Assembly (NCBI GenBank): GCA_913043025.1
Contig: CAJWLM010000021.1
Location: 1-48,836 of the forward strand
DNA length: 48,836 nt
Direction: 5' to 3'
Origin: an uncultured Rhodospirillaceae bacterium
GTDB lineage: Bacteria > Pseudomonadota > Alphaproteobacteria > UBA8366
The notes beneath the pieces were generated by a model that saw only the letters and a program-made list of their open reading frames with translations, searched no databases and was not told where the DNA came from. Shown one piece after another: positions 12,639 through 24,025 of the stretch (within the stretch, counting starts at the first letter, position 1; every line of letters begins with the position of its first letter). The translations under genes and the position numbers were made by a program.

Positions 12639-13451
12639 CTATTTTTCCAATAACTGCATGACGGCTGCCGCCGTCTCTTCGATTGATCTTCGAGCAACGT
12701 CAATCACGGGCCAATTGTAGTCCGCGAAGATTCGCCGCGCATCTGCTACTTCCCGCCTTACTATCTCAAGCTTAACGTAATCTGTCTCATTTTGCTGTGA
12801 CAGCGAGCGTAATCGATTGCGGCGTAGCTGAATTAGTCGTTCGGGGGAATTGGTCAGACCAACGATGAGTGGCGCATCCGCAGACTTCAGTTCGAATAAC
12901 TCTTTAGGAAGTGCTATTTCCGGTACATAAGGGACATTTGCCGCTTTTATCCCTCTATTGGCTAAATACATGCATGTTGGTGTTTTTGAAGTTCGAGAAA
13001 CTCCGACAAGTATTAAGTCTGCATGCTTGAGGTTCCAAACAGATTGCCCGTCATCATTTGCCATCGCGTAAGTCATTGCATCAATACGCTCGAAATATTG
13101 TGCGTTGAGCGCGTGTTGCAATCCCGCTTCACCTCGACTTTCTATTCCAAAGTAATTGGCTAAGGTCGCCATTGTAGGGTCCAGAACAGGTATGCACGGC
13201 ACCCTTAGAGATCTGCATCCATCTTGAAGCCTGATGCGTAAAGCATTGTCAACTATTGTGAACATCACTACGCCTGGGTCCTTTGAAATGCCATTAAGGA
13301 CCTTATCTATCTGCCCTACAGTGCGCACCAAAGACCAGTGATGTTCTGATGGTTCGACCGAGCCGAATTGCGCAAGGCATGCGCGGGCAACACTATGGAT
13401 AGTTTCCCCCGTTGCATCTGATACCAAGTGAAGGTCGTAGCGTTCGGCCAT
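12639..13451 (-). CDS. ppsR: PEP synthase / pyruvate-phosphate dikinase regulatory protein (DUF299)
   Basis: These are bifunctional ADP-dependent kinases/Pi-dependent pyrophosphorylases that switch PEP synthase or pyruvate phosphate dikinase off and on. The start at 13451 gives MAERYDLHLVSDATGET, the standard opening; an in-frame extension to 13493 adds 14 unconserved residues that run into the origin region. The P-loop-like GVSRTSKTPTCMYLANRG near residue 150 is intact. The length of 270 is normal. In Caulobacter and Rickettsia the gene of this family (RP001/CC0001) flanks the origin opposite hemE, the same as here. Confidence 0.95.
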   Translation of the reverse strand: MAERYDLHLVSDATGETIHSVARACLAQFGSVEPSEHHWSLVRTVGQIDKVLNGISKDPGVVMFTIVDNALRIRLQDGCRSLRVPCIPVLDPTMATLANYFGIESRGEAGLQHALNAQYFERIDAMTYAMANDDGQSVWNLKHADLILVGVSRTSKTPTCMYLANRGIKAANVPYVPEIALPKELFELKSADAPLIVGLTNSPERLIQLRRNRLRSLSQQNETDYVKLEIVRREVADARRIFADYNWPVIDVARRSIEETAAAVMQLLEK

Positions 13452-13494
13452 AATTATCCAGTTCTTTCGGGATGGTGTATTAATTAATGACAAA

Positions 13495-13503
13495 TGTGGA
13501 TGA
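13495..13503 (-). promoter_or_regulatory. DnaA box, one mismatch
   Basis: On the minus strand this reads TCATCCACA, one base off TTATCCACA (position 2). It lies 8 bases from the perfect box in the opposite orientation. Confidence 0.55.
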
Positions 13504-13511
13504 ACAAGGGT

Positions 13512-13520
13512 TTATCCACA
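13512..13520 (+). promoter_or_regulatory. Perfect DnaA box
   Basis: TTATCCACA, identical to the high-affinity consensus, in the ppsR-hemE gap. Confidence 0.8.
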
Positions 13521-13573
13521 ACTACTTCAATGAAACTGATTTTTATGCTGTAATACTCACAGATACGGATAGT

Positions 13574-13592
13574 GTTTTCCACTATGGAAAAC
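13574..13592. repeat. Perfect inverted repeat in the origin region
   Basis: GTTTTCCA at 13574-13581 and TGGAAAAC at 13585-13592 are exact complements around a CTA centre. Each arm contains a TTTTCCA that resembles a degenerate DnaA box. It could be a protein site or a small cruciform. Confidence 0.6.
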
Positions 13593-13649
13593 TTTATTAC
13601 ACCAAGTGTATAAAAAAGAGCCGGGTTGCTGCAATACACTTTATTCCCA

Positions 13650-13658
13650 TTATCCACT
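13650..13658 (+). promoter_or_regulatory. DnaA box, one mismatch
   Basis: TTATCCACT, differing from consensus only at the last base. Confidence 0.6.
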
Positions 13659-13728
13659 GTTCCTTTTTTGTTGGAGTAAAGAGTTGTTTCTTTTGATAAC
13701 CAAGGAGTCGCCGCCGCCATTATTATTC

Positions 13729-13737
13729 ATATCCACA
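13729..13737 (+). promoter_or_regulatory. DnaA box, one mismatch
   Basis: ATATCCACA, differing from consensus only at the first base. Weaker two-mismatch sites follow at about 13788 and 13796. Confidence 0.55.
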
Positions 13738-13867
13738 GCATATGGGGCTAATACACACTCACATATGGATACAATATGCATAGATTTAATCCACGTTATA
13801 CACCGTAAAACAACAACAACATCTTAAGGAATCAATTCTTAATTTGTTGTTTAGAAACCGGGTCATT

Positions 13868-14944
13868 ATGGAAAACAACACAAACAAGAATTTAATCTTG
13901 AGAAATCTTACGGGAAAACGGACATCGTCCGTTCCTATCTGGTTGATGCGACAAGCAGGAAGATATTTACCTGAATATAGAAAAATCAGACAGGCCAAAG
14001 GCTCGTTTCTCGATTTATGTTATAGTCCCAAATTAGCAGCTGAAATCACTTTGCAACCGGTACGACGGTTTGGATTTGACGCCGCTATTTTGTTTTCCGA
14101 TATATTAGTCATCCCAGATGCGCTAGGGCAAAGGGTCTCATTTGAGGAAGGATTAGGACCTGTTCTTGAACCGCTAACACCTCAGGAACCTCTCTTGGTA
14201 GATCGGGTTGATAGATTAAAAAACGACTCTTTACACAAATTGGACGCAGTTTATGAGACGATAGAGCGTGTTGCCGCTGAAAAAAAAGATGACTGCGCCT
14301 TGATTGGTTTTGCCGGCGGGCCGTGGACTGTTGCAACATACATGGTAGAAGGAGGATCAAGTCGTGATTTTCTAAAAATTAGGCGCTGGGCAACCTGTAA
14401 CCCAACAAGCTTCGGATCACTTATCAACACTCTCACTGATGCGACCATCGCTCACTTGGATGCGCAGATAAACGCAGGTGTTGAAGTGTTACAGATTTTT
14501 GAATCTCATGCGGGGGTCTTGGACTGCTTTGGGTTTGATCAATGGGTCATAAAGCCAACACGAAGAATTGTTGATACGATTAAAGGTAAACATCCTCATA
14601 TACCGATTATTGGATTTCCTCGGGGGGCTGCCGCTCAAATCCCTGTTTTCATATTGGAAACAAAAGTAGACGCTGTCAGTTTAGATCAGTCAGTGCCGCT
14701 TAATTGGGCTTCTTCAGAGATATCTGACAGTTTTCCTGTGCAAGGAAATTTAGATCCAATTTACTTGTTGGGCGACCCGGCGGAACTCTCGGTGCATGTC
14801 AGTAGGGTTTTATCCGCTTTTGCTAACAGGCCCTTCGTTTTTAATTTAGGGCATGGAGTGAATAAAGAAACGGACCCTAAATCGGTAGAGAGACTAGTTG
14901 AGATCGTTCGGGATTATAATCATAGGTCTCCTAAAGAAACTTAA
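13868..14944 (+). CDS. hemE: Uroporphyrinogen decarboxylase HemE
   Basis: HemE removes four carboxyl groups from uroporphyrinogen III to give coproporphyrinogen III in heme synthesis. Family signatures are VPIWLMRQAGRYLPEYRKIR near the N-terminus (binding arginines), FGFDAAILFSDILVIPDALG with the catalytic Asp, GFAGGPWTVATYMVEGG, and the C-terminal FVFNLGHGVNKETDP. From the ATG at 13868 the product has 358 residues; a TTG at 13844 would add eight residues without conservation. It is the first gene to the right of the proposed origin. Confidence 0.96.
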   Translation: MENNTNKNLILRNLTGKRTSSVPIWLMRQAGRYLPEYRKIRQAKGSFLDLCYSPKLAAEITLQPVRRFGFDAAILFSDILVIPDALGQRVSFEEGLGPVLEPLTPQEPLLVDRVDRLKNDSLHKLDAVYETIERVAAEKKDDCALIGFAGGPWTVATYMVEGGSSRDFLKIRRWATCNPTSFGSLINTLTDATIAHLDAQINAGVEVLQIFESHAGVLDCFGFDQWVIKPTRRIVDTIKGKHPHIPIIGFPRGAAAQIPVFILETKVDAVSLDQSVPLNWASSEISDSFPVQGNLDPIYLLGDPAELSVHVSRVLSAFANRPFVFNLGHGVNKETDPKSVERLVEIVRDYNHRSPKET

Positions 14945-15204
14945 TTCTAGTATCATCGTGTTCATCAACACTAGGTTTTACCGTAGCCCCAGCTTGTTTG
15001 CCCCGAAATTTTTGGTATTTTTGGTTTTTCGCTTGTGCCAGCTCGTAGTTTAGTTATATTGGCGGTGAAAATTCATGTCGTTCTAGTCGGCTCCAATTAT
15101 GGCTCCCTGCCAAATATCTCATAGAGCCAATTCTTTAATTTCCTCAATCCAGCGATAACAATAGGTGAAGTGCTGGACAACCCCTTATAAAAATCGAGCT
15201 TAAA
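14945..15204 (+). promoter_or_regulatory. hemE-rho intergenic region, probable rho leader
   Basis: The 260-base gap contains no protein-coding frame I can support; many alphaproteobacteria have hemJ here and this window does not. GTGTT at 14958-14962 and AACAC at 14967-14971 form a short hairpin after hemE followed by TTTT a few bases on, a weak terminator candidate. The remaining stretch should hold the rho promoter and leader. rho is autoregulated by its own leader in other bacteria; I see no motif that proves this here. Confidence 0.4.
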
Positions 15205-16476
15205 ATGAAATTGGAAGAAATTAGCCTCCATGACTTAAAACAAAAAACTCCAGGTGAGCTTCTTGCCTTGGCAGAGGAATTAGAAGTTGAGAACGCGAGC
15301 AATTTAAGAAAACAAGACATGATGTTTGGGATATTGAAGCAGTTAGCTGCTGAGTCAGTTCCCATAGTAGGTGACGGCGTCTTGGAAGTTTTACAAGACG
15401 GTTTTGGGTTTCTCAGATCTCCTCAGTCTAACTACCTGCCTGGGCCTGATGATATTTACGTAAGCCCAAGCCAAGTAAAACGTTTTGGCCTAAGGACAGG
15501 TGATTCCGTTGAGGGTCAAATCCGTGCACCGAAAGATGGGGAACGATATTTTGCACTACTCAAAGTGGGAAAAGTTAATTTTGACGACCCGGAGGCTGTG
15601 AGGCACCGAATAAATTTTGATAATCTAACGCCTCTTTATCCAGAAGAAAAATTAAATCTTGAAATTGAAAACGATGAGTCAAAGGACTTCACTTGCCGCG
15701 TGATTGAACTCGTTGCTCCCATAGGAAAAGGCCAGCGCGGGCTTATTGTGGCGCAACCACGTACGGGCAAGACAGTTATCATGCAGAATATTGCCCATGC
15801 AATTACGAGCAATCATCCCGAAGTTTACGTTATAGTTTTACTCATAGATGAACGGCCGGAAGAAGTTACTGACATGGCTCGCTCAGTCAACGGCGAGGTT
15901 GTAAGCAGCACCTTTGATGAGCCTGCAACTCGTCATGTGCAAGTTGCAGAGATGGTCATCCAAAAGGCTAAGCGGTTGGTAGAGCATAAAAGGGACGTAG
16001 TAATATTGCTGGACTCAATTACCAGACTTGCAAGAGCATATAACACTGTGGTTCCGAGCTCTGGTAAGGTCCTGACTGGTGGTGTGGATGCTAACGCTTT
16101 GCAGAGGCCCAAACGCTTTTTTGGCGCTGCACGAAACGTTGAGGAGGGCGGTTCTATGACAATCATCTCCACCGCTTTGATAGATACAGGCAGTCGCATG
16201 GATGAGGTGATTTTTGAGGAATTTAAAGGAACAGGCAATTCTGAGATAGTGCTTGACCGTAAGCTGTCTGATAAACGTGTATTCCCATCAATTGATATCC
16301 AAAAGTCGGGAACACGAAAAGAGGAATTACTGGTAGAAAAAGGCACTTTATCTAAAATGTGGGTTCTGCGAAGAATACTGCTACCTATGGGAGTCACCGA
16401 CGCCATGGAGTTCCTTTTAGAGAAATTAAAACATTCAAAAAACAATTCTGATTTCTTTGACTCAATGAATCAATAG
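15205..16476 (+). CDS. rho: Transcription termination factor Rho
   Basis: Rho is the hexameric RNA helicase that ends transcription at rut sites. The N-terminal domain ([20 protein letters not shown]) is followed by the cold-shock-like RNA-binding domain with [20 protein letters not shown], then the ATPase domain with Walker A AQPRTGKT at residues 183-190, [13 protein letters not shown], and the Q-loop/R-loop region [14 protein letters not shown] and [20 protein letters not shown]. The length of 423 is normal and there is no long insertion. Confidence 0.98.
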
Positions 16477-16558: not shown

Positions 16559-17530
16559 CTACGGCGAAAGTATTGTAGAGCCCGTAGTGTTTCGTGACTC
16601 CAAAGCGCGATGAGCATCCGCAACATCTTTAAGAGCAAAAGTTTGTTTTATCTCAACTTTCAACCCGTTCTTAATATGATTAAAGAGCCAGCCGGCCAAT
16701 TCTGTCACGAGTTCATGGGTTCCAATGTGGCTCATTAGTGTTGGCCGCGTGAAAAATAAAGAGCCTTTTTGTGATAAAAGGCCCGGTTCGAAAGGCGGAA
16801 CAGGTCCCGACGCATTGCCGAATGAAACAAACGTTCCAAACTTAGCCAAGCAGTCTATGCTTTCATCAAAGGTTGATGCCCCTACTGAGTCATAAACTAC
16901 AGGCACCCCAACCCCGTCAGTTATATCCATGACAGTGTCTTTGAAGCTCTCTTCTGTATACACAATTGGGTAATCACAACCGTATTTACGGGCAATTTCA
17001 GCTTTTTCTTTACTCCCCACGGTGCCCACCACGATAGCACCAAGCTGCTTAAGAATCTGGCACGCAATCAAGCCTACTCCGCCGGCGATGGCATGAAATA
17101 AAACAATATCGCCCTTTTTTACAGGATGTGTGCGATGCAATAAGTAAGAGGCTGTAAAGCCCTTGAGCATTACGGCTGCAGCAGTCTCGTCAGTAACGTC
17201 GTGTGGTATTTTGACTACTGCATCAGCATTGATAACCCGTTTACTTGTGTAGGCACCCAGGCCGCCGCCCGCGTAGGCAACCCTATCCCCAACAGAAAAC
17301 TCCGTTACACCATCGCCCACTTTGTCTATGGATCCGGCAGCTTCCAGGCCGATCGCTGCAGGCAAATCAATCGGGTAGAGACCTGTGCGATGGTAAACGT
17401 CTATAAAATTTAAGCCGACCGCAGTTTGGTCTATCGAAATCTGACCGGGGCCGGGTAATTCTTCCGGCACGTCAACCACACGCATAACCTCGGGCCCCCC
17501 GGTCTCTAGAATGTGTATAGCGTAAGGCAT
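16559..17530 (-). CDS. Zinc-independent quinone oxidoreductase (QOR, MDR superfamily)
   Basis: The 323-residue protein matches NADPH:quinone reductases of the crotonase-independent, zinc-free MDR type: GPGQISIDQTAVGLNFIDVY with YHRTG, GLEAAGSIDKVGDGV, VMLKGFTASYLLHRT, and a Rossmann loop AIAGGVGLIACQILKQLGA (the AxxGxxG form of this family). The zinc-binding Cys residues of alcohol dehydrogenases are absent. It likely reduces quinones or enones with NADPH. A ribosome-binding site AGGATC precedes the ATG. It is 12 bases after the dienelactone hydrolase-like gene, so the two are one unit. Confidence 0.93.
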   Translation of the reverse strand: MPYAIHILETGGPEVMRVVDVPEELPGPGQISIDQTAVGLNFIDVYHRTGLYPIDLPAAIGLEAAGSIDKVGDGVTEFSVGDRVAYAGGGLGAYTSKRVINADAVVKIPHDVTDETAAAVMLKGFTASYLLHRTHPVKKGDIVLFHAIAGGVGLIACQILKQLGAIVVGTVGSKEKAEIARKYGCDYPIVYTEESFKDTVMDITDGVGVPVVYDSVGASTFDESIDCLAKFGTFVSFGNASGPVPPFEPGLLSQKGSLFFTRPTLMSHIGTHELVTELAGWLFNHIKNGLKVEIKQTFALKDVADAHRALESRNTTGSTILSP

Positions 17531-17542
17531 TTATATGATCCT

Positions 17543-18244
17543 TTATTTGAGATATTCAGAGAAACATTTCATGGTACGCTCATCTGCTATTTGAGAGGCC
17601 GCTGGATCAAAATTTACACCATCGTGGCGTGCAAAGGCGTGATCCACTTTTGGATAATTGTAAACAGTGATCTGGTTATTAGCAGCTAAGCATTCATTGA
17701 TATCAAGCTGTGTCTCTTTTGACACAAAGCTATCTTCTTCTGCTATGTGTAAAATTGTGGGGCTATTAATGCCATTAGCTTGCTGCAAATGATCTTCGAT
17801 CCCAACTCCATAGTAGCTGACATTGCAGTCTGCATCGCTGTCTAAAGCCATTTTGTACGCAAGTAAGCCCCCCAGACAAAAACCAACAGTGCCAGCCTTA
17901 CCATTACAACCATCGATTTGGCGCAAGTACTCAAGTGAAGTCAATAAATCTGTAATGCCCTTATTTACATCAAAACCTTTATATAACTCAAAGGCTTTTG
18001 CCCAATCGGCATCAGATTGATCGGCAAGCTGTATCCCCGGTTCTTGCCGCCAAAAAAGGTCCGAGCATAGCGCAAAATATCCCATCGCTGCCATTCGATC
18101 GCAATGGGCGCGCATATCTTTGTTAACACCAAAAATTTCTTGGATAACTAAGATACCGCCGTTACCGCCAGTTGCTTCGTTAGTCGGCACTGCCAAGTAA
18201 GCTGTGAATTGCCCATCAGAGCAATTAATGTTTATATCAGGCAT
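17543..18244 (-). CDS. Dienelactone hydrolase family protein
   Basis: The 233-residue alpha/beta hydrolase has the nucleophile elbow GFCLGGLLAYKMAL with Cys in place of Ser, as in true dienelactone hydrolases, the acid in ILHIAEEDSFV, and the His in KVDHAFARHD. VIQEIFGVNKDMRAHCDRMA is the strongly conserved N-terminal segment. The protein probably hydrolyses a lactone or ester; the exact substrate is unknown, as no chlorocatechol genes are nearby. It is the upstream gene of the pair with qor and lies divergent from mnmE. Confidence 0.92.
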   Translation of the reverse strand: MPDININCSDGQFTAYLAVPTNEATGGNGGILVIQEIFGVNKDMRAHCDRMAAMGYFALCSDLFWRQEPGIQLADQSDADWAKAFELYKGFDVNKGITDLLTSLEYLRQIDGCNGKAGTVGFCLGGLLAYKMALDSDADCNVSYYGVGIEDHLQQANGINSPTILHIAEEDSFVSKETQLDINECLAANNQITVYNYPKVDHAFARHDGVNFDPAASQIADERTMKCFSEYLK

Positions 18245-21709: not shown

Positions 21710-22315
21710 ATGTCGCGCGAAACCTTTTGCAACGCGGTCTCTGTTTCACGTGAAACCGCTGACCGACTAGGGGTATACATCACCCTTTTAAAGAAATGGA
21801 ATAGAACCATAAATTTGGTGAGTTCGCGTAGCTTGGATGACCCCTGGAGGCGACATATCCTCGATAGCGCACAGCTGGCCCGTCACATGCCGAATAAAAG
21901 GGTGCGCATAGTTGACTTGGGAAGTGGCGCTGGATTGCCGGGTATTGTGCTTGCCCTGATCCTGCCGGAGGCCGATGTGCACTTGGTAGAATCTGACCAA
22001 CGCAAAGCCGCTTTTTTACGTGAAGCTTCGAGAGTGTTAGATTGCAAGATTAGTCTTCATGTGGGACGTATCGAGTCCGAAATCAATACAATAAAAAACA
22101 TAGATGTTTTTACAGCCAGAGCCCTCGCTCCCCTTCCAAGGCTTTTAAAGTATATTGAATCCACATTGAATGAGAAAAAAGTATGTATTTTTCATAAAAC
22201 AAAAGGTATAGATAAGGAATTAGATCGTTTGAATTCGGAGATATTAAAATCTGCGCTCGTTTTGGATAGCATTAGTGATCCGCGTGGGAAAATATTAGTT
22301 CTGGAGGTTGAGTAA
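21710..22315 (+). CDS. rsmG: 16S rRNA G527 N7-methyltransferase RsmG (GidB)
   Basis: RsmG methylates N7 of G527 in 16S rRNA. The SAM motif is VDLGSGAGLPGIVLALILPE followed by HLVESDQRKAAFLREASR; TARALAPLPRLLKYI is the family motif further on. The ATG at 21710, four bases after mnmG, gives 201 residues; an in-frame reading from 21485 would lie inside mnmG and is rejected. Residues near 11-16 (VSRETA) are encoded by a parS-like sequence. The product ends just before parA. Confidence 0.94.
   Translation: MSRETFCNAVSVSRETADRLGVYITLLKKWNRTINLVSSRSLDDPWRRHILDSAQLARHMPNKRVRIVDLGSGAGLPGIVLALILPEADVHLVESDQRKAAFLREASRVLDCKISLHVGRIESEINTIKNIDVFTARALAPLPRLLKYIESTLNEKKVCIFHKTKGIDKELDRLNSEILKSALVLDSISDPRGKILVLEVE
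21742..21757. promoter_or_regulatory. Second parS-like site inside rsmG
   Basis: TGTTTCACGTGAAACC matches the parS consensus at 15 of 16 bases (last base C for A). It encodes Val-Ser-Arg-Glu-Thr of RsmG. Location 2 kb from the first site and 0.6 kb from parA fits a parS cluster. Confidence 0.8.
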
Positions 22316-22316
22316 A

Positions 22317-23135
22317 GTGAATAGTGCCGACGAGATAAAAATAGGCCCAAAATCGAAAACGAGGGTGTTAGTTGTCGCCAATCAGAAAGGTGGTGTTGGA
22401 AAAACCACGACAACTGTAAATTTGGCAACTGCGCTTGTTGCCATTAAAAAGCGGGTGCTAATAATTGATTTTGATCCACAGGGAAACGCCACAACCGGGC
22501 TCGGGTTTGATCGGTCTCAAATAAAAACCTCCTCTTACAATGTTTTGATTGAGGGTTCGGAGTTTAAATCTGCAGTCCTCGCGACCGATATCCCGCGTTT
22601 ATCAATAGTCCCGGCCTCGGTGCATCTCGCAGGCGCCGAGGTAGAGCTGGTAAATGCTGAGCGCAGAGAATATCGATTAGCAGATGCCCTAGGAACATTG
22701 GGAGAGGGGGCTTTCGATTATATTTTGATTGACTCACCCCCGTCATTAAACCTTCTTACTATCAATGCTTTAACGGCTGCAGATGCAGTGTTGGTGCCTT
22801 TGCAAGTAGAGTTTTACGCGCTTGAAGGGTTAAGCCATTTACTCAGCACGATTGAGCGTGTCCGTCGTGCCTTCAATCCTCGGTTGGATATTCAGGGGGT
22901 GGTGCTAACTATGTTCGACCAACGCAATAATCTCTCGGAGATGGTCGCTGAGGATGTTCGCAGTCACCTCGGCGATAAAGTTTATAGCACCATTATACCA
23001 AGGAATGTTCGCATTTCCGAGGCCCCGTCGTTTGGTAAGCCGGTTCTTCTTTATGATCACAGTTGTGCTGGAGCTCGAGCATACATACATCTTGCAGGAG
23101 AGCTTCTTAAGCGCGAGCGGGCGGCTGCAGCATGA
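22317..23135 (+). CDS. parA: Chromosome-partitioning ATPase ParA (Soj)
   Basis: ParA is the Walker-type ATPase that moves the ParB-parS complex and segregates the origin. KGGVGKTTT with the deviant Walker A Lys occupies residues about 24-32, DFDPQGNATTGLG is A', and YILIDSPPSLNLLTINAL is Walker B. I take the GTG at 22317 as start, because GGAGG at 22303-22307 is well placed for it; a TTG at 22308 lies directly after that site. The product is 272 residues. It overlaps parB by four bases (ATGA). Confidence 0.96.
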   Translation: MNSADEIKIGPKSKTRVLVVANQKGGVGKTTTTVNLATALVAIKKRVLIIDFDPQGNATTGLGFDRSQIKTSSYNVLIEGSEFKSAVLATDIPRLSIVPASVHLAGAEVELVNAERREYRLADALGTLGEGAFDYILIDSPPSLNLLTINALTAADAVLVPLQVEFYALEGLSHLLSTIERVRRAFNPRLDIQGVVLTMFDQRNNLSEMVAEDVRSHLGDKVYSTIIPRNVRISEAPSFGKPVLLYDHSCAGARAYIHLAGELLKRERAAAA

Positions 23136-24025
23136 TTTCGACCGAGGAAAAAAAGGTTCGTCGCGGCCTTGGGCGTGGTTTGTCTGCGCTTTTTGGTGAA
23201 GAGGAGCGTGCCTCTTCGGCCCAAATGAATTCTGGTTCTTCAGAAATGGCTATCCACGTTTTGAAACCGGGTAAATTTCAGCCTCGTCGCCATTTCGACG
23301 CTACTGCTCACGCAGCGCTAGTTTCTTCTGTAAAGGATAAGGGTGTTTTGGAGCCCATACTCGTGCGGGAAATCGGGGGGTCACCCGATAGCTACGAAAT
23401 CATCGCTGGCGAGCGTAGGTGGCGAGCGGCCCAAGCAGCTGGGTTACACCAAGTACCCGTGGTGGTCAAGCAGCTGGATGATCGCGAAGCCCTGGAAGTA
23501 GCCCTAATCGAAAATCTTCATCGCTCGGACCTTTCCCCGCTGGAAGAGGCTGAGGCCTATAGTCGACTGCTAGAAGAGTTTGGCCATACCCAAGAACAAT
23601 TAGCAAAGGCAGTGGGTAAGAGCAGAAGCCACGTTGCAAATATGATCCGGTTGCTGGCGCTTCCCGATTCTGTAAAAAACATGGTTCTTGATGGTAGGTT
23701 GAGCGCTGGACACGCTCGTGCGCTAATTACATTTTCAGAGCCAGAGCTGTTAGCTTCGGAGGTTGTGGCGAAGGGTTTGAGTGTCCGACAATTGGAAAAA
23801 TTGATTCAACGCTCATCGAGTGGAACGGAAAAAAAGTCTAACGGCAACAATCAAAAGACAACCGGTTCCAAGGATCCAAATACAGTTGAGCTCGAGGGGA
23901 GTTTAAGTGATAGGCTTGGTTTGAAGGTTTTGATCGAAACAAAAGGAGAGGGTGGTACGTTGTCTGTGCAATTCCAAAGCTTAGAACAGCTGGATGATTT
24001 GCTTAAAATTTTGGGGCGAAATTGA
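23132..24025 (+). CDS. parB: Chromosome-partitioning protein ParB (Spo0J)
   Basis: ParB binds parS and spreads along the DNA as a CTP-dependent clamp. The N-terminal RRGLGRGLSALFGEE is the ParA-stimulating segment, KPGKFQPRRHFD opens the ParB domain, and GERRWRAAQAAGL is the CTPase/box II motif. IENLHRSDLSPLEEAEAY and a HTH at KAVGKSRSHVANMIRLLALP follow. A poly-polar linker precedes the C-terminal dimerisation domain. The length is 297. It is convergent with holA. Confidence 0.97.
   Translation: MISTEEKKVRRGLGRGLSALFGEEERASSAQMNSGSSEMAIHVLKPGKFQPRRHFDATAHAALVSSVKDKGVLEPILVREIGGSPDSYEIIAGERRWRAAQAAGLHQVPVVVKQLDDREALEVALIENLHRSDLSPLEEAEAYSRLLEEFGHTQEQLAKAVGKSRSHVANMIRLLALPDSVKNMVLDGRLSAGHARALITFSEPELLASEVVAKGLSVRQLEKLIQRSSSGTEKKSNGNNQKTTGSKDPNTVELEGSLSDRLGLKVLIETKGEGGTLSVQFQSLEQLDDLLKILGRN

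Follow-up and report, generated by a model that had tools for sequence, protein, structure and literature searches.

The 416-bp gap between ppsR and hemE, with transcription divergent at both sides, is predicted with near certainty to be the chromosomal origin, oriC, of this uncharacterised alphaproteobacterium, which places the origin to within a few hundred bases. The whole reading, in which this origin is opened via two core DnaA boxes and a run of deviant triplets next to them, is probable. As an origin, the gap is of the expected kind, and its placement makes it a further member of the already known hemE-ppsR origin type; the variant is the triplet element, a deviant kind that, judged from its sequence, reads CHA on the top strand and 3′-GDT-5′ on the bottom strand with a free middle base. 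This sequence element is common to many alphaproteobacterial origins and departs from the published middle-adenine trio rule. If DnaA reads the element, there would be more than one code for bacterial origin recognition and opening, with one residue to swap.

Location of the predicted origin between ppsR and hemE

The stretch of DNA that was analysed (the window, 48,836 nucleotides) corresponds to the whole of contig C21, one of the 65 contigs that make up the 3.08-Mb draft genome. Since ppsR and hemE both score above curated NCBIfam cut-offs, the gap is delimited by these two genes (Table 1). The initial annotation had called it the largest non-coding stretch, which holds for the internal gaps among the accepted genes of the window; on the right, the contig closes with 1,886 bp containing an open reading frame that continues past its end. 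The divergent transcription that had also been reported is confirmed, with ppsR on the minus strand and hemE on the plus strand. The gene order is secB, dnaQ, coaE, aroE, a maf-like gene, ppsR, the gap, hemE, rho, two extra genes, mnmE, mnmG, rsmG, a parA-like gene, parB and holA. Between rho and mnmE, the minus strand (16559-18244) carries a quinone-reductase-like gene and a gene for a YghX-like hydrolase, both under the model cut-offs.

For the comparison with relatives, 118 hemE upstream regions were assembled (30 + 28 + 60; 32 from the same order and 86 from elsewhere in the class, L122 being excluded). The order sample comprised 59 relatives, 50 of which have HemE; 30 loci were analysed at first and 3 more were added later. 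The class sample comprised 98 genomes with HemE, of which 2 were already in the set, 28 gave new loci, 57 were later additions and 11 were left out, mostly for weak or partial matches. A divergent ppsR was found upstream of hemE in 30 of 30 loci, our own included, with gaps of 348-536 bp. In the set of 118, it was found in all 32 same-order regions (again with our own) and in 65 of the 86 other class regions.

Table 1. Coordinates of the features in and around the ppsR-hemE gap
Feature	Position	Strand	Remarks
ppsR (COG1806, DUF299)	12639-13451	-	Left flank; NF003742, 325 bits, above curated NCBIfam cut-off
Predicted oriC, ppsR-hemE gap	13452-13867		DnaA-box cluster, lowest GC, skew minimum, divergent ppsR-hemE
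DnaA box TCATCCACA, 1 mismatch	13495-13503	-	Faces the perfect box; invariant in 3 same-genus sequences
Perfect DnaA box TTATCCACA	13512-13520	+	Invariant in 3 same-genus sequences
DnaA box TTATCCACT, 1 mismatch	13650-13658	+	Not kept in two same-genus genomes
DnaA box ATATCCACA, 1 mismatch	13729-13737	+	Invariant in 3 same-genus sequences
Core DnaA box 1, TAATCCACG, 2 mismatches	13787-13795	+	Commonest form in the order is TAATCCCCG
Core DnaA box 2, TTATACACC, 2 mismatches	13796-13804	+	Directly abuts box 1
Five triplets, putative deviant DnaA-trio-like element	13808-13822	-	Top strand AAA CAA CAA CAA CAT; from conservation, motif search and triplet scans
A+T-rich stretch behind the triplets	13823-13856		By eye; window skew minimum at its first base
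hemE	13868-14944	+	Right flank; TIGR01464, 383 bits, above curated NCBIfam cut-off
parA-like ATPase of the origin region	22308-23135	+	Best model under its cut-off
parB, origin-proximal partition gene	23132-24025	+	TIGR00180, 194 bits, cut-off 58

The gap contains four DnaA boxes with at most one mismatch versus 0.23 expected, a count that none of 2000 dinucleotide shuffles reached, and 16 boxes with at most two mismatches versus 2.43 in dinucleotide shuffles. When the contig was divided into 416-bp windows in 20-bp steps, at least three boxes with at most one mismatch were found only in windows overlapping the gap. These results show that the clustering of DnaA boxes in the gap exceeds chance. 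The perfect box and the three one-mismatch boxes are at the positions given in the initial annotation, and as origin evidence it is their cluster that stands. The rarity of the perfect box was rejected as evidence, with 21 copies in the genome versus 27 of the reversed control word, and the box at 13650-13658 is not kept in the two same-genus genomes. Two GANTC sites had been listed as well; both are present (13705 and 13829), and there is no enrichment, with 0.85 sites expected from the window density. The GANTC sites and the box at 13650-13658 thus carry little weight for the origin call.

The GC content of the gap is 0.353 versus 0.455 for the window, with 0.45-0.48 in slices of contig C3, and at 50-bp steps the 400-bp stretch with the lowest GC content in the window lies here (0.35). 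Neither a perfect CtrA site (TTAA-N7-TTAA) nor an IHF consensus was found in the gap; a CtrA site with one mismatch lies at 13839-13853, and such sites occur at chance level in the window. Judged by these sites, there is no support for control by CtrA or IHF. GcrA is encoded in the genome. No Rfam element above chance level was found in the gap by a scan limited to 13000-15300. The left half of the gap has a TTTTCCACTATGGAAAA palindrome (13575-13591), which is kept as GTTTTCC...GGAAAAC in the genus. Behind the perfect box, on the ppsR side, a short CTACTT (within 13512-13533; CTACAT and CCACAT in sister genomes) forms a second weak triplet-like stretch.

The cumulative GC-skew minimum of the window lies at 13823. 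The third-codon-position skew changes sign from the left to the right of the gap in genes of both strands, which argues that the skew pattern does not come from gene direction alone. The best two-segment split of the window falls at 12,800 and does not pick out hemE sharply, and the split is stronger in one of 11 control windows taken from contig C3; therefore, the window skew alone is not decisive, and the origin argument is carried by the skew minima together with the sign pattern of relatives. In 329 kb of one contig of the same-genus genome G002, the cumulative minimum lies at 387,443, at the end of the core element described below, whose orthologous triplets begin at 387,428; the HemE match begins at 387,494. 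All ten slices to the left of hemE in G002 have negative skew and five of the seven to the right have positive skew, the other two being one at -0.011 and the short last one at -0.045; the best two-segment split of this contig is at 472,701, away from hemE. Four single-contig relatives from the order were sampled in 20 slices each, and three of them switch skew sign at hemE: in G017, the six slices as far as hemE are negative, the next 10 positive and the last 4 negative; G020 has nine negative, 10 positive and 1 negative; G038 has nine negative, one at -0.0004, nine positive and one at -0.003. When the 40 kb around hemE are considered, the distance of the minimum from the gene is about 0.5, 4 and 5 kb, respectively, in these three genomes. 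The fourth relative, G013, showed no pattern in its 20 slices, 14 of which contain runs of N; its skew is uninformative, and the scaffold order may be unreliable. The sign change that had been expected at the gap is thus seen in the window minimum, in the G002 minimum and in three of the four relatives, and the split statistic does not place it sharply.

Origins next to dnaA are common in bacteria, and the window covers a single one of the 65 contigs of the draft, so the true origin could lie near dnaA or elsewhere, with the ppsR-hemE gap being a regulatory region only. The dnaA gene of this genome is on contig C3, where all eight slices, covering 150 of 199 kb, are negative. A skew change next to dnaA, which the initial annotation had named as evidence against its own proposal, is therefore absent from these 150 kb. 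In G002, dnaA lies 83 kb to the left of hemE amid negative slices. These results make an origin outside the gap extremely improbable. Taken together, the gene pair, synteny, box cluster, low GC and skew minimum support the proposed chromosomal origin between ppsR and hemE, and the location of oriC in the gap is well supported.

A conserved core of boxes and triplets next to hemE

In the alignment of three same-genus gaps, the longest nearly invariant block is 13785-13825, on the hemE-proximal side, and not any of the four boxes with at most one mismatch. This core is the most conserved element of the gap and was overlooked by the initial annotation. It consists of TT, TAATCCACG, TTATACACC, GTA and five triplets, followed by A+T-rich DNA, and the bottom strand of 13808-13821 contains only T and G. 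The spacer GTA (13805-13807) could be one more triplet. In the whole genome, the core has one match at up to three mismatches, and the reversed control has none. A motif search of 30 order loci, in which one site per gap was forced and which was seeded with four family instances, placed the core 81-162 bp before hemE with 15.7-49.9 bits versus at most 6.9 bits on the other strand. This search replaced a first hand-made core score, which in 11 of 30 gaps had its best site outside the core or on the opposite strand. For the class as a whole, the claim relies on the box-plus-triplet pattern, since low scores of the 40-column order motif were frequent among 29 further loci of the class.

From this layout and from B. 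subtilis, we infer how the origin would be opened. DnaA would bind the cluster of strong and weak boxes in the gap, and from the abutting, co-oriented boxes at 13787-13804 a DnaA filament would extend rightwards onto the bottom strand of the triplets (3′-GTT-5′ units), which is presumed to be the DnaA-bound strand. Strand separation by the filament would then proceed into the A+T-rich stretch that precedes hemE, the likely site of further opening, where the helicase would be loaded. That the triplets act as an unwinding element is rather likely.

The triplet pattern and DnaA residue 187 in Alphaproteobacteria

The class-wide pattern was defined as a DnaA box (no more than two mismatches) followed, after 0-16 bp, by four CNA triplets (one mismatch allowed). 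It was found in 45 of the 118 hemE upstream regions on the hemE strand and in none on the reverse strand, versus 0.6 in dinucleotide shuffles. CNA ranks first among 112 triplet patterns, none of which was chosen beforehand (45 forward, 0 reverse, 0.3 in simple shuffles). When boxes with up to three mismatches were allowed, the CNA run was present in 65 of 118 regions (27/32 in the order and 38/86 in the others; 3 on the other strand), and 53 regions had no run even so. The middle base, which was not used in the selection, is A in 107, T in 83, C in 68 and G in 2 of 260 triplets on the top strand. In an unselected 30-row alignment, the first-position C is present in 23, 22, 23 and 23 of the 30 rows (columns 24, 27, 30 and 33), and the canonical middle T on the top strand in 27 of 120. 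Canonical trios with this middle T gave a weak signal when searched as such (CTA in 3/118 at one mismatch), as did NTN without mismatch (28 forward, 24 reverse, 8.8 shuffled). For NTA, shuffles are the only valid control: the repeat is its own complement after a shift of frame, so the reverse strand cannot serve.

Outside the class, 26 dnaA loci (about 3-4.5 kb, both strands) contained the box-plus-CNA pattern in six, one of them (L269) CTA-like, which is too few to compare middle bases. In Caulobacter-genus genomes, the run is absent by eye in 5/5, though the hemE-ppsR pair is kept; the sample comprised seven stretches, of which L284 (G588) has neither gene and that of G568 has hemE and ppsR at opposite ends of the record. 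Sequences of the basal unwinding system (BUS) have been predicted over a tree that includes proteobacterial classes (excerpts of PMC8287927). In open-licence literature, including portions of PMC10225481 and PMC10797057, we found no CNA-type trio stated for Alphaproteobacteria, which does not prove novelty.

The gap could be oriC without DnaA reading the CHA run, which would then belong to hemE as an A/C-rich leader or as a promoter element, such as an enhancer of translation, and opening would take place elsewhere in the gap. A/C-rich leaders can aid translation, and the distance from the triplets to the hemE start is only 45-60 bp. The run also stays with hemE where no divergent ppsR was found, with perfect (CNA)4 in 6 of 21 such regions (1 reverse, 0 shuffled), and Caulobacter has hemE without such a run. 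However, neither a three-base period in which the middle base is free nor a nearby DnaA box in fixed orientation would be required of a leader, and the skew minimum falls on the run or at its end in two genomes, where the C content of the run itself helps to set the exact base. This reading is unlikely. It is also conceivable that DnaA binds the triplets of oriC without base recognition, that only the boxes and a low melting energy matter, and that the pattern is simply what melts easily. The nearly free middle base and the A+T-rich DNA behind the triplets agree with this, yet the position-1 C raises the melting energy and is nevertheless kept in about three quarters of the unselected alignment rows, and we regard binding of this kind as quite improbable.

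We favor triplets that are recognised by DnaA, and the residue at position 187 bears on how. The B. subtilis structure shows a contact between Asn187 and the amino group of the middle trio adenine (excerpts of PMC10721633). Alignment to PDB 8btg places a Tyr at this position in the DnaA of this genome, and Tyr, Phe or His is found there in 52 of 60 other alphaproteobacterial DnaA. The residue is aromatic in 28 of 29 genomes with the CNA run (24 Tyr, 3 Phe, 1 His and 1 Val) and in 24 of 31 genomes without a detected run (22 Tyr, 1 Phe, 1 His, 6 Ser and 1 Arg). One set of 34 class DnaA rows stands for 33 genomes (L258 repeats G066, and L252 is our own genome); the 30 of the second set were selected mainly because they lack the run, and five of them are Caulobacter-genus genomes. 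These five and one more genome of their family have Ser at position 187 and no CNA run. The DnaA of these six (L329-L333 and L335) is only 42-46% identical to that of our lineage; identity is also low in G098 (47%), G046 (41%) and G156 (46%), and is 61-98% over the matched part in the other genomes. Among 26 rows outside the class that are labelled as belonging to the same phylum, there are 7 Asn, 7 Ala, 6 Thr, 4 Gln and 2 Ser, and no aromatic residue. This pattern would be consistent with a changed reading of the triplet, with the caveats that the rows are related by descent, that Tyr occurs without a detected run and that Asn is not found throughout the rows from outside the class.

The DnaA of this lineage, with its aromatic residue at the position of B. 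subtilis Asn187, may thus recognise the triplet in another way. With an unwinding element of (CHA)n on the top strand and 3′-GDT-5′ on the bound strand, the neighbouring pair 3′-TG-5′ is invariant and the B. subtilis specificity base is free; alternatively, this conserved pair could be what the DnaA pocket captures. A changed base recognition by DnaA is offered tentatively, and the aromatic residue in 24 of the 31 run-less genomes argues against it. In B. subtilis, A and C work as the middle base of the trio, and G and T impair opening (excerpts of PMC10721633); the middle thymine in our own genus argues against the mechanism, as do the Caulobacter genomes without a run, the 53 of 118 regions without one and the two mismatches in each core box. 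It is possible, and here too we remain tentative, that many, perhaps most, Alphaproteobacteria open their chromosome by a distinct triplet code read by a Tyr/Phe187 DnaA and that the Caulobacteraceae, which have a divergent DnaA with Ser187 and no CHA run, have adopted a further code.

Comparison with the origins of Caulobacter and B. subtilis

The gap resembles the Cori type of Caulobacter, whose origin is known experimentally, in its divergent flanking genes, its clustered weak DnaA boxes and its raised A+T content. It is 416 bp long versus roughly 520-540 bp in Caulobacter-genus genomes, and parB lies about 8 kb beyond hemE, compared to about 10 kb in Caulobacter. Cori has five CtrA sites and one IHF site (excerpts of PMC1914354), whereas the gap has no perfect CtrA site and no IHF consensus. 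In addition, the CHA run is present here and, by eye, missing from the five Caulobacter-genus genomes, and DnaA position 187 is Tyr here and Ser in Caulobacter. Origins at hemE-COG1806 (ppsR) are described for Caulobacter and Rickettsia in the same excerpts, which, like the Caulobacter-genus genomes, agree with the initial annotation that ppsR and hemE are the pair at the Caulobacter origin. The criteria given there for this origin type are hemE and COG1806/ppsR as boundary genes, a gap of 200-1000 bp, enriched DnaA boxes, A+T above that of the genome, a GC-skew switch, and IHF and CtrA sites. We found the gene pair with its 416-bp gap, DnaA-box enrichment relative to contig windows, the raised A+T and the skew switch, and did not find IHF and CtrA sites as in Caulobacter. 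Since not every criterion is present in every genome (PMC1914354, in part), the absence of these sites bears on regulation and not on origin status.

The core resembles the BUS of B. subtilis, as far as the excerpts of PMC8287927 describe it, in having two co-oriented DnaA boxes, a short spacer, a box-distal triplet repeat and then A+T-rich DNA, and the first base G and the third base T of the trio are kept on the presumed bound strand. Canonical DnaA-trios are 3′-GAT-5′ with a conserved middle adenine, which the published search requires (excerpts of PMC8287927). Unlike in the B. subtilis trio, the middle adenine occurs in only 83 of 260 triplets of the class set and in 0/5 in our own genus, and Asn187, the reader of this adenine in B. 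subtilis, is replaced by Tyr in our DnaA. The limits of that search, which ask for one or two DnaA boxes (the better one with no more than two mismatches) not more than 16 bp from the triplets, cover the two core boxes, with two mismatches each and the spacer GTA; three or more trios with a middle adenine (3′-NAN-5′), which the published rule demands, are absent. Therefore, the core, which would work like a BUS, is not filed as canonical. Deviant trios without a middle adenine were suspected by the BUS authors (PMC8287927, in part), and the distinct triplet code, if true, would be the deviant trio that they suspected.
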